64,000 nucleotides of DNA from an uncultured Bacilli bacterium (GTDB taxonomy: Bacteria; Bacillota_I; Bacilli_A; RF39; UBA660), in contig CALWAL010000003.1 in assembly GCA_944373145.1 (NCBI GenBank), forward strand, positions 62,001 to 126,000, written 5' to 3'. Positions within the stretch are counted from its first letter, which is position 1, and each line of letters starts with the position of its first letter. The notes beneath the pieces are model-generated. The model searched no databases and was not told the DNA's origin. It saw nothing but the letters and a program-made list of their open reading frames with translations. This document shows, one piece after another, positions 1 to 22,767 of the stretch. The translations under genes and the position numbers were made by a program.

Positions 1-1866
1 ATTGTTTATGTTAGTAAGAAAAAAATTAAACTAGTAGAAAATAGGTATTATGAAATTATTTTAGGCGCTTCTTTTTTTGAAGTACTAATTGATACTATAG
101 CACACTTGATATGCGCTATAAAAGGAATCGATGCTTTGCAAACTGTTTTTTATGTTCAACTATTTAATTGGCTAAATCGGTTTATGGTTATTTCTTTTAT
201 AATAGTTTTAACATCTTTGTTTTGCTATATTTTATATATAAGCTATGAATCTATTCAAAAAAAGTATCACATTTTAGATTACTGTTTAATTGGATTTAAC
301 GTGTTATCTTTCATTAGTTTACTTTTCTTTGATGTAGAAATATATTCAATAGGTACGGTAACTAATGTTAGAGGTGGTATTATAGATGTTGGTTATGCAA
401 TTATAGCTTTTTTGATTTCTTGTTCAATAGTTGCAACAATATTTAATATCAAGAAGATTGATCGTCGTTACATAACTATTTTCTTAGTTTTGGGAATGAT
501 TGTGGCTTTTTATTTTTTAACATTATATTTTCCAAGTTTAATTATTTATGATTTAATTTTAGCTGTTCTTTGTTATACAATGTATTTTACGATTGAAAAC
601 CCTGATTTGCGTATGATTAATCAACTTAATGAAGCTAAGAATATAGCGGAAAAAGCTAATATGGCTAAAAGTGATTTTTTATCTAGTATGTCTCATGAAA
701 TTCGTACTCCTCTTAATGCCATTGTTGGTTTAAGTGAAGATATTATTAAATATAAGGAACAATTACCCAAAGATGTTGTTGAGGATGCTGAAGATATAGT
801 TAATGCTTCTAATACTTTACTTGAAATTGTTGGTAATATATTAGATATCAATAAAATTGAAAGTTCTAAATTAGAAATTGTAGATATTTTATATCATCCT
901 AAAGAAGTTATTGAAACTGTTATTAAGGTTTTGAGTACTAGAATAGGAGAAAAACCGATTGATTTGTCTGTCAATATTGCTTCAGATATTCCATATGAAT
1001 TATACGGTGATAAAACCCGCATTAAACAAATTGTTAATAATTTATTTACGAATGCTATTAAATATACTGATAAAGGTTATATTAAAATAGATGTTAAATG
1101 TATAAATAAAAATGATAATTGTCTTTTATTTATAAGTGTCGAAGATAGTGGTAAAGGAATTAAAAGCGAAAACATTAGCCGTTTATTTACTAAGTTTGAC
1201 CGTCTTGATATAGATAGCAATTCCACTACTGAAGGAACTGGTTTAGGACTTGCTATTACTAAAAAACTTGTTGAAATGATGCATGGTAAAATTAATGTTG
1301 AAAGTCAATTTGGTAAAGGTTCTATTTTTATGGTTCAAATTCCTCAACGAATTAATAAAATGTTTAATACTACAATTTCTCCACACCCACTTTCAACGGT
1401 CAATAGAAATATAAATTATAGTGGAAAACGTGTTTTGATTGTTGACGATAATAAATTAAATATTAAAGTGGCTAAAAAAATTTTAGAAGAATTTAAATTT
1501 GATATTGAAACAGCTTATAATGGTAAAGAGTGCTTGGATTTGATTTATAGTGGCAACACTTATGATTTAATTCTAATGGATATTATGATGCCAGTTATGA
1601 GCGGAGAAACAGCTTTAAAAGAATTACAAAAAATAGAAGGTTTTAATACTCCAGTTATAGCACTCACAGCGGATGCCTTAGCTGGTGCCAAAGATAGATA
1701 CTTGTCAGCTGGTTTTGCTGACTATATTGCCAAACCGTTTAATCATAACCAAATTAGTCAAAAATTAGATAATTTATTTAAGACAAGTAAATTGGAAGAA
1801 GATTTAGATGACCGATTTAAAGATGTCCCGGTACATGTAATTGTGGATAATATAAACATGAAATAA
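1..1866 (+). CDS. Hybrid sensor histidine kinase, 5' end outside window
   Basis: Membrane sensor kinase with a C-terminal receiver domain. The frame is open from base 1 with no stop, so the true start lies upstream and at least 621 residues are coded here. The first ~190 residues form about five hydrophobic segments (membrane sensor part). Then comes the HisKA H-box [10 protein letters not shown] (phospho-acceptor His codon 694-696), the N-box [11 protein letters not shown], and the G-boxes DSGKGI and GTGLGLAI of an HATPase_c domain. A REC domain follows: VDDN acidic pair, phospho-acceptor Asp in MDIMMP (codon 1579-1581) and the Lys of AKPF. No HPt or output domain follows, so phosphotransfer probably goes to another protein. 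The signal sensed is unknown. It ends in a hairpin shared with the convergent DUF192 gene. Confidence 0.93.
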
Positions 1867-20362: not shown

Positions 20363-20436
20363 GCCGGTTTAGTTTAATGGTAAAACAAGTCACTCGTAAT
20401 GATTAGCTGTAGGTCCGATTCCTACATCCGGCACCA
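20363..20436 (+). tRNA. tRNA-Thr(CGU)
   Basis: 74 bases with encoded CCA. Acceptor GCCGGTT/ATCCGGC (one T-T mismatch at 6-67), D-arm GTTT/AAAC, anticodon stem AGTCA/TGATT with loop CTCGTAA (anticodon CGT), T-stem GTAGG/CCTAC. The T-loop is TCCGATT: position 55 is C instead of T. Confidence 0.9.
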
Positions 20437-20446
20437 GTAAATTAAT

Positions 20447-20469
20447 AAACCTTATTTTGTAAGGTTTTA
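20447..20469 (+). terminator. Hairpin between the tRNA-Thr genes
   Basis: AAACCTTA / TAAGGTTT stem and four T; weak terminator or processing signal. Confidence 0.5.
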
Positions 20470-20470
20470 T

Positions 20471-20544
20471 GCCGTAATAGTATAATGGTATTACGAGGCC
20501 ATGGTAAGGCTTTAACGTAGGTCCGATTCCTACTTACGGCACCA
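20471..20544 (+). tRNA. tRNA-Thr(GGU)
   Basis: 74 bases with CCA. Acceptor GCCGTAA/TTACGGC fully paired, anticodon stem AGGCC/GGCTT with loop ATGGTAA (anticodon GGT), T-stem GTAGG/CCTAC with loop TCCGATT, again C at position 55. Same T-arm as the first tRNA-Thr. Confidence 0.92.
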
Positions 20545-20704: not shown

Positions 20705-21172
20705 ATGGACAAGATTTTAGAAATAAATGAGTTAATCAAAAAATATAGTGAAATGGGTATCATATCATCAAAAAATATCAGTGATGGTCACCATACATTT
20801 AGAGAAATATATAATGAAAGATTCATTTTGTTTTGTGTAATTTGTAATATTTTCCTGAATTATCGTGGAAAGCAAAAAAACATTTTGATGAGGAAAACGA
20901 TCCGATGTATGAAGGCGATTTTATTGCAGGTATAAATACACCAGAAGGCGTAGTCACATATCATATTAAATTAAAATACTGGGATTTATTTGATATCCCA
21001 GAAATTAATAGAGCGCCAAAATATGATAATTATACTTCAGAAGATGTTATGAATAGAATATTGTCATTAACTAAAAATAATCCACATAGAAAAAAATCTA
21101 GAAGTTATTTTCCTTCTTTCTTTAGGGCACCATTGCTGATTAGTTCAAATTATTTGAACTTTAATATAAAAG
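20705..21172 (+). pseudogene. Frameshifted phage-type hypothetical gene
   Basis: Remnant of one gene in two frames. The first part (20705 on, MDKILEINELIKKYSEMG..ISDGHHTFREIYNERFILF) runs to about 20860. The continuation is in another frame: PELSWKAKKHFDEENDPM then GDFIAGINTPEGVVTYH and YWDLFDIPEINRAPKYD, which is the conserved part of a small phage-associated family seen with ISDGYHTFNELYEHR-type starts. A single indel near 20850-20862 explains both frames. RBS GGGAG is still present before the ATG. The function of the family is unknown to me. The C-terminus after LSLTKNN looks abnormal, and a terminator follows. Confidence 0.7.
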
Positions 21173-21198
21173 TCGACTCAAATTGAGTTGATTTTTTT
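21173..21198 (+). terminator. Terminator after frameshifted gene
   Basis: TCGACTCA / TGAGTTGA stem followed by seven T. Confidence 0.7.
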
Positions 21199-21199
21199 G

Positions 21200-21869
21200 A
21201 TTTATCCTAATAAGCCACGCATTAGTTTAATTTTAGCTACTTCTGTTTTTGGTAATAATATTGAACGTAAAAATCAATTGCACTCTTTACTATGCCATTT
21301 TTCAATTGAAACAAGAGCTGGTAAACACTATATTAATAGTTGTTTAAATAGTGTTGTAAAATTATTGAAACTTAATTGTGATATTATCGTTTTTCCACAA
21401 GGTGTTTTTGATGATAATCATAGCATTTTAAAAGCCAGAATTGTATTGGCTCGAATTTTATTTGAAGCCTTAGAATTTAAAAACATAAAAATTAATTTAG
21501 TCACTATTGTGTTAGAAATTTCTAATTTAAATGAAAATAATATTAGAAAAGTTAGAACATGGTCAAGTTTTAAAGCTAAAGTAACAAATTTAAAACAATT
21601 TGCCTATGATGAATATTATAAAAGTATAAAGGGTGCAATACTATTATGCATCTACTCCTTGACGATATGATGCTTATTATTGCTCCAAAAATGGGGTTAT
21701 CCTTTAAAAAACGCATCTTCCTTTGTATGATATGGATGGATTTTGGTTTCCAAATGGTAAATATATTAAATTTGCCGAAGTAGAAGATAAAAACTTGTAT
21801 TTTCAATATGATAGATTTTTGTCACAAACAAAAAAGAATTATACGAAGGAACTAAAAAAATTATGGTAG
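21200..21869 (+). pseudogene. Decayed PlsC-like acyltransferase gene
   Basis: Remnant without a proper start: the frame enters from a terminator T-run, so the 5' part, including any HxxxxD motif, is lost. It begins PNKPRISLILATSVFGN, and has IIVFPQGVFDD (compare the FPEG motif of 1-acylglycerol-3-phosphate acyltransferases, Glu replaced by Gln) and LARILFEALEFKNIKINLVTIVLEI. After 21660 the reading moves to other frames: LLDDMMLIIAPKMGLSF, then YDMDGFWFPNGKYIKF and QYDRFLSQTKKNYTKEL to the stop at 21867. At least two frameshifts are needed. The PlsC assignment rests on a weak motif, so it is tentative. Confidence 0.5.
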
Positions 21870-21934
21870 AAAAAGTGATAATTAAAAAAGATATGAACAA
21901 TACTTAATTGAAAAAGCATATCATATCTTTAAGT

Positions 21935-22084
21935 TTATTTTTTGTGGCAATCACAATTTTCGCCACATGCACAAGGTTCATTTTCGCCACATGCACAAGG
22001 TTCATTTTCGCCACAATTGCACTCTTTGTTTTCTTTGCAGTCACAAGTGCAATTATCACTACAATTATTTTTTTCTTCAGTCAT
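21935..22084 (-). CDS. Metallothionein-like Cys-rich small protein
   Basis: A 49-residue gene hidden on the minus strand, with RBS AGGAGGG six bases before ATG. The product has 12 Cys (8, 12, 14, 16, 22, 24, 30, 32, 38, 40, 44, 46), most in CxC pairs (CTCDC, CNC, CAC, CAC, CDC), a penultimate His47, no aromatic residues and many Asn/Glu. It contains a direct repeat of the eight-residue unit CGENEPCA (24-base DNA repeat). This composition is that of metal-thiolate proteins, so it likely binds Zn, Cd or Cu in the cytoplasm. A minus-strand promoter lies 150 bases upstream. No known bacterial metallothionein (SmtA, MymT) signature matches, so it may be a new type. Confidence 0.75.
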   Translation of the reverse strand: MTEEKNNCSDNCTCDCKENKECNCGENEPCACGENEPCACGENCDCHKK

Positions 22085-22240
22085 TTTAATCCCTCCTAAA
22101 CATTAATTATTAAAAAAATAAAATTTAGTCATTGGTGAGTAGATAATACTATCTTTTTTTAAACTATAAAAAGATATAATAAAATTCGAATATAATTTTA
22201 ATGATTATTTTTTAATCATAATTTCCATATTCTTTTTAAT

Positions 22241-22269
22241 ATTATAACCATTAATGACCTTTTTGTAAA
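22241..22269 (-). promoter_or_regulatory. Promoter of Cys-rich gene
   Basis: Minus strand TTTACA (22269-22264), 17 bases, TATAAT (22246-22241). Confidence 0.6.
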
Positions 22270-22362: not shown

Positions 22363-22767
22363 ATGTTAGTTGTTGGAACAATGTTTTTTAAAAATCAAAA
22401 ATTATTAATAGATAAGCCAAGAAAGAGAAATACTTATCAAATGATTGGTGGAGGGGTTGAAGAAGGAGAGACTCCTTTAATGGCTGCTATACGTGAATGC
22501 TATGAAGAACTTGGCAATCATATTACTTTAGATCCAAATGCATTTGAATTAATTATGGATTTCGATGAAATAGCAACAAGTGATCCTAATAAAAAAATTC
22601 ATTTTTATGTTTTTGAGTACAAAAAGGAATTAAATGATGAACCAATTATTAATGAAGAAATAGAAAAATTTATGTGGTATGATTCAAGCCAAGGAGAAGA
22701 AATCTTGTCTAATACTTTAAAACATGAAGTGGTTCCTTATTGCTTAAAAAAAGGCAAAATAAAGTAA
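22363..22767 (+). CDS. Nudix hydrolase
   Basis: 134-residue Nudix-fold hydrolase of nucleoside diphosphate-X compounds. The Nudix box is complete: GGVEEGETPLMAAIRE followed by CYEELG (G-x5-E-x7-RE-x2-EE-x-G, residues ~27-48), giving the metal-binding helix. Upstream KPRKRNTYQMIGG and downstream strands (FYVFEYKKEL, EKFMWYD) are as expected. The small size and lack of extra domains prevent a substrate call. RBS AGAGGTGG. Stands alone between two promoters; it is not in an operon. Confidence 0.88.
   Translation: MLVVGTMFFKNQKLLIDKPRKRNTYQMIGGGVEEGETPLMAAIRECYEELGNHITLDPNAFELIMDFDEIATSDPNKKIHFYVFEYKKELNDEPIINEEIEKFMWYDSSQGEEILSNTLKHEVVPYCLKKGKIK

Follow-up and report, generated by a model that had tools for sequence, protein, structure and literature searches.

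A short cysteine-rich, metallothionein-like gene in an uncultured Bacilli lineage whose relatives carry a similar module on housekeeping proteins

Our analysis suggests that a short minus-strand open reading frame (ORF) in the window (the whole 64,000-nucleotide stretch of DNA analyzed here) is a real, independently transcribed gene for a lineage-specific metallothionein-like peptide, and that it represents the free form of a cysteine-rich module otherwise found on housekeeping proteins; we give this reading a probability of about two in three. In the following sections, we discuss the gene and its signals, its genomic setting, its stand-alone and fused relatives, and the functions that these data make more or less probable.

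The cysteine-rich ORF and its expression signals

The ORF (21935-22084, minus strand) runs from an ATG start to a TAA stop and encodes MTEEKNNCSDNCTCDCKENKECNCGENEPCACGENEPCACGENCDCHKK, a peptide of 49 amino acids with a pI of ~4.4. Twelve of its residues, about a quarter, are cysteines (positions 8, 12, 14, 16, 22, 24, 30, 32, 38, 40, 44, and 46); it has a single histidine (residue 47) and no phenylalanine, tryptophan, or tyrosine. CxC motifs number six if overlaps are counted and form five clusters if CTCDC is taken once. The N-terminal element C8-x3-C12-T-C-D-C-x5-C22-N-C24 spans 22013-22063 (minus strand), and the unit CGENEPCA occupies residues 24-31 and 32-39, both encoded by one 24-bp unit present in two exact head-to-tail copies (21968-22015, minus strand). 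A first-pass annotation of this DNA had described a hidden 49-residue gene with 12 cysteines in five CxC clusters, a CGENEPCA duplication, and no aromatic residues, all of which held up, with the coordinates exact. It had also regarded a hydrophobic plus-strand frame over the gene as an artefact, and this frame (21908-22099), which opens with TTG and has no visible ribosome-binding site, indeed reads as a shadow of the cysteine codons.

The cysteine content of the ORF lies far beyond that of simulated sequence. A third-order Markov model was trained on the window and used to simulate 6 Mb, from which open segments of 30 aa or more were taken on both strands; the maximum among these 83,472 segments was 9 cysteines per 49 aa and 3 CxC motifs, compared to 12 and 6 in the real ORF. 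The runner-up open segment within the window has 6 cysteines, and across the 1.29-Mb assembly ORF 21935-22084 is the sole in-frame run with three or more CxC motifs. Residue shuffles of the peptide reached the short spacing C-x-C-x-C-x5-C-x-C in 1.5% of cases and the extended spacing (with C-x3-C added) in 0.23%.

Signals expected of an expressed gene flank the ORF on both sides. The strong ribosome-binding site claimed for it is present as AGGAGGG at 22091-22097 (minus strand), 6 nt upstream of the ATG, and a terminator hairpin whose 10-bp outer stem leads into a U-run lies directly 3' of the stop codon (21880-21930, minus strand), folding far better than its shuffles (z -3.9). A candidate promoter ~160-185 nt upstream (TTTACA-17-TATAAT, 11 of 12; 22241-22269, minus strand) is plausible but not proven, since an equally good site turns up in 2.2% of dinucleotide-shuffled versions of the intergenic region. 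The first-pass annotation had proposed a promoter with a ~150-base leader containing hairpins: a leader of ~150 nt would follow if the promoter is right, but its fold does not differ significantly from shuffles (z -0.47), and a palindrome within it is matched by 82% of shuffles. A known RNA leader or riboswitch upstream of the ORF was also considered, and no Rfam family matches the leader.

Genomic setting and distribution in the genus

The Cys-rich gene and a NUDIX gene (22363-22767, plus strand) are divergently transcribed, the latter being a conserved neighbor that anchors synteny with the congener genome G008, where genes for a HAD-like protein, NUDIX, and a large 653-aa protein occur in similar order. 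Between its HAD-like and NUDIX genes, G008 contains a gene for the manganese exporter MntP and no Cys-rich ORF; the counterpart interval of the window holds two tRNA-Thr genes, the Cys-rich gene, and what appear to be pieces of decayed genes. The Cys-rich gene is not a replacement of MntP, which the window genome keeps elsewhere. The two tRNA-Thr genes (anticodons CGT and GGT) lie at 20363-20544, in the variable interval that adjoins the Cys-rich gene. A WDGH-domain gene appears to be split over two frames at 20705-21186 (ORFs 20705-20935 and 20905-21186) and is either decayed or affected by a sequencing error, given that the match of the second ORF is confined to the C-terminal portion of the Pfam domain. 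Between this fragment and the Cys-rich gene, overlapping short ORFs (21188-21869) resemble one decayed gene.

A stand-alone Cys-rich gene is detectable in 2 of the 12 genomes of the genus, and its absence from the syntenic congener G008 marks it as accessory, in a variable stretch of a neighborhood that is otherwise conserved. The first-pass annotation was silent on this sporadic occurrence, as it was on the module being mostly fused to housekeeping proteins (see below). Among the neighbors scanned, there is no metal gene or metal regulator beside the window's Cys-rich gene, and no ArsR/SmtB-family repressor. The free form is the only form of the module found in the window genome: among the loci examined with two- and three-CxC patterns, no other protein carries a Cys tail, save a short DUF1540-like-looking protein. 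No GrpE and no convincing DnaK were found in the window assembly (G000, 95% complete), the operon either falling in a gap or having been lost. An origin of the ORF as a broken-off GrpE N-terminus is unsupported, as those congener GrpE proteins whose start was read have one cysteine. No homologues were found on plasmids, in phages, or on viral contigs; three viral pattern matches were unconvincing, two of them lying inside larger ORFs without a visible Cys-rich tail and one having no in-frame reading.

Stand-alone relatives

Stand-alone relatives of 48-69 residues occur both within the genus (UBA5578) and in further genera of its GTDB family, and have in common the spacing C-x3-C-x-C-x-C-x5-C-x-C, typically CTCGCQEGKECTC. 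The window peptide matches them (C8-x3-C-T-C-x-C-x5-C-x-C, with further CxC pairs downstream), and the spacing of its N-terminal element equals that of CTCGCQEGKECTC in both the stand-alone relatives and the fused tails. The first-pass annotation had made its reading hinge on relatives retaining the frame or the Cys pattern, and the same spacing does recur within the genus and beyond it in the family. A plain search recovered a congener protein of 48 aa with 16 cysteines and its own ribosome-binding site (L002, genome Bacillales bacterium UBA5578; MCKCEETCTCGCQEGKECTCEETCTCGEDCSCGEECSCGDNCSCSCEE). The spacing pattern C-x-C-x-C-x5-C-x-C was applied family-wide, and among the matches listed most are due to chance; these matches also include two stand-alone genes, L230 (58-61 aa, 17 Cys) and L231 (57 aa, 18 Cys), and L232, a protein whose 60 aa include a hydrophobic anchor. 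A 69-aa relative of stand-alone type, L184, was found through the CGxxCxC pattern scan described below.

An alignment of five stand-alone proteins contains 11 invariant cysteine columns in addition to M1 and T13. The usual glycines (CTCGCxxGxxCTC) are absent from the window peptide, which has CTCDCKENKECNC, with D and N at the two positions; most other module members have G, making this a typical feature rather than a strict one. Judged by sequence, shared ancestry of the window gene and the stand-alone relatives is likely, though common descent is not proven because low-complexity Cys-rich sequences can converge.

The setting of L184 bears on the possible regulation of such genes. At this locus (789-1274, minus strand), an ArsR-family protein (Pfam HTH_5, E 8e-15) is followed in frame by the 69-aa Cys-rich cistron with a ribosome site of its own (AAAGGAG); as no stop codon separates the two parts, the locus can be read either as a fusion or as containing a second cistron. 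The ArsR protein carries an LCAC motif at the place of the CxC of arsenic and soft-metal sensors of the ArsR family, and just before its start lies a palindrome with 9-bp arms (TATATAGAC-AAAC-GTCTATATA). Control of a metallothionein by a repressor of ArsR/SmtB type has been shown in Anabaena (PMC8790569). By analogy, the L184 layout is the arrangement of a metal-controlled metallothionein and resembles smtB-smtA, and it is evidence on the window gene by relationship, the latter having no such neighbor.

The module on housekeeping proteins

We scanned the CGxxCxC pattern over a sample of 386 genomes of the GTDB family and found the module in 38 of them, representing 26 of 150 genera, while the reversed control pattern gave 0. 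Of the 30 loci examined, 16 carry it as a C-terminal tail on histidyl-tRNA synthetase (HisRS) and 5 as a C-terminal tail on a ferredoxin; in 5 it extends the N-terminus of GrpE, in 2 it is found on a DUF1292 protein, in 1 it precedes the glutaredoxin domain of NrdD, and the last is a chance match. Pfam confirmed one example per carrier, and the others were identified by sequence. The ferredoxins concerned are small 4Fe-4S ferredoxins (L114, L118, and L127-L129), and DeoC is a further protein seen with a Cys-rich tail. That the lineage repeatedly attaches a Cys-rich module to housekeeping proteins such as HisRS and GrpE has no precedent in the literature searched: nothing specific was found on a Cys-rich or metallothionein module on either protein, or on metallothioneins of gut Firmicutes (subscription journals were outside the scope).

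Modules of CGDDCHC type were seen at L103-L132 and L180-L188 (e.g., L109:1471-2871, L123:958-1737, and L127:1486-1815). An 80-aa short DNA-binding-like protein (L234:1179-1421), which by eye resembles RelB/DinJ-type antitoxins, has a CDCDCECDCNHDCDC tail. In other phyla, proteins that by eye resemble acetate-CoA ligases and FKBPs bear Cys-rich tails, and stand-alone Cys-repeat proteins were seen in MAGs of Alphaproteobacteria (L055; 145 aa, 46 Cys, CKCGEDCKCGEG type) and Saccharibacteria (L044; 76 aa, 18 Cys).

It is possible, if somewhat short of probable, that the metallothionein-like module is exchangeable across a family of small-genome gut-type Bacilli, being free in some species, the window gene being one such form, and borne by housekeeping proteins in others ('gut-type' here rests on record titles, the named carriers coming largely from animal guts and rumens). 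The carriers in such a scheme would be HisRS, GrpE, ferredoxin, DeoC, NrdD, and perhaps an ArsR-type repressor. Soft-metal buffering capacity would then ride on housekeeping expression.

Function and alternative explanations

A metallothionein-like function appears likeliest for the window peptide because of its composition, its lack of aromatic residues, its CxC ladder, and its ArsR-linked relative. It has the make-up of functional metallothioneins, which are short, contain at least 20% cysteine and CxC pairs, and have few or no aromatic residues. The metallothionein-like nature proposed in the first-pass annotation gains from the recurrence of its Cys spacing in relatives, one of them in frame behind an ArsR repressor, but metal binding itself is something we infer, together with the expression of the 49-aa peptide, the identity of the metal, and the physiological role.

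In the mechanism we propose, the 12 thiolates of a cytosolic peptide, arranged in CxC pairs, would wrap soft metal ions (candidates are Cu(I), Zn, Cd, or As(III)) into metal-thiolate clusters, which may in turn buffer or detoxify these metals. The window gene would be the free-standing version of a module that combines C-x3-C-T-C-G-C-x5-C-T-C with CGxxCxC repeats and is typical of its GTDB family. Points against this reading are the lack of a metal gene or metal regulator among the neighbors scanned, the sporadic occurrence of the gene, and the chance that fused tails on HisRS or GrpE have a redox or structural purpose instead of a detoxifying one.

CxC pairs are redox-capable, and the peptide might act as a thiol redox or persulfide buffer, its Cys pairs cycling between dithiol and disulfide and protecting an anaerobe from oxygen or oxidants, with metal binding incidental. 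The occurrence of the module on redox-related proteins of relatives (4Fe-4S ferredoxins, and NrdD, where it precedes a glutaredoxin domain) is consistent with such a role. We nonetheless consider it unlikely: the main carriers, HisRS and GrpE (16 and 5 of the 30 loci), are not redox enzymes, L184 follows a metal repressor, and the window peptide, for which neither a family nor a structure match was found, contains no thioredoxin-like domain.

Slightly less probable again is that the peptide is a chaperone or store donating Fe-S, Cu, or Zn to particular clients, the fused tails being donors attached to the client they serve. In its favor, ferredoxins with C-terminal tails, HisRS, and NrdD carry the module in relatives; against it, GrpE, DeoC, DUF1292, and the short DNA-binding-like protein are not obvious metalloproteins, and no client adjoins the stand-alone gene of the window.

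That the ORF is spurious, or a repeat expansion through CGENEPCA slippage that has no function and yields no product under selection, is very improbable, for although the exact 24-bp duplication is recent, the adjoining 20.7-21.9 kb resembles decayed genes, and the gene is missing at the syntenic place in G008, the strong ribosome site, the terminator hairpin (z -3.9), a Cys density far beyond simulation, and an N-terminal Cys spacing common to relatives with their own ribosome sites all argue for a genuine gene.

Genes of this type are easily missed, because usual ORF cut-offs exclude genes this short and their low complexity defeats standard homology searches. If the metallothionein-like reading is true, this lineage contains an uncatalogued type of metallothionein, raising a directly testable question about metal handling in small-genome gut bacteria.

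Comparison with known metallothioneins

The window peptide has no family match in Pfam or NCBIfam (E <= 10), PHROG, or PDB, and the empty Pfam and NCBIfam scans agree with the earlier remark that it lacks a classical bacterial metallothionein motif. The Pfam profile Metallothio_Pro (SmtA/BmtA) likewise gives no match at E <= 10. Together with its different Cys/His make-up, these profile scans place the peptide outside the SmtA/BmtA family, to the extent tested. Like SmtA, BmtA, and PsdMT of cyanobacteria and Pseudomonas, it is short, Cys-rich, soluble, and presumably forms metal-thiolates, and the pairing of smtA with smtB is paralleled by the position of relative L184 behind an ArsR/SmtB-family gene. 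The SmtA-like core comprises 9 Cys plus His in a zinc-finger-like fold. The window peptide differs from these proteins in having no Pfam match, one histidine only, a CxC ladder, and, on inspection, another Cys spacing; the solved cluster of a Pseudomonas metallothionein involves 9 Cys plus His (PMC7387436), compared to 12 Cys in the window peptide.

The stand-alone family also has the CxC ladder in common with animal metallothioneins. Its best PDB echo is the Cd-metallothionein 6QK5 (E 0.087, non-significant) and its best Pfam echo is Metallothio_5 (E 0.84 for one stand-alone member, non-significant); these weak matches probably reflect composition. MymT of Mycobacterium tuberculosis is ~50 aa long with 12-13 Cys. 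It has a copper role (PMC7387436), and its likeness to the window peptide lies in size, Cys count, and the soft-metal handling that the latter may perform; the two differ in Cys spacing, have no detectable relation in Pfam or NCBIfam, and come from unrelated phyla. Further counterparts are the modules fused to HisRS, GrpE, ferredoxin, and other proteins within the same GTDB family, which contain the same C-x-C-x-C-x5-C-x-C element and CGxxCxC repeats as the free peptides; these are extensions of housekeeping proteins, whereas the window module stands alone.
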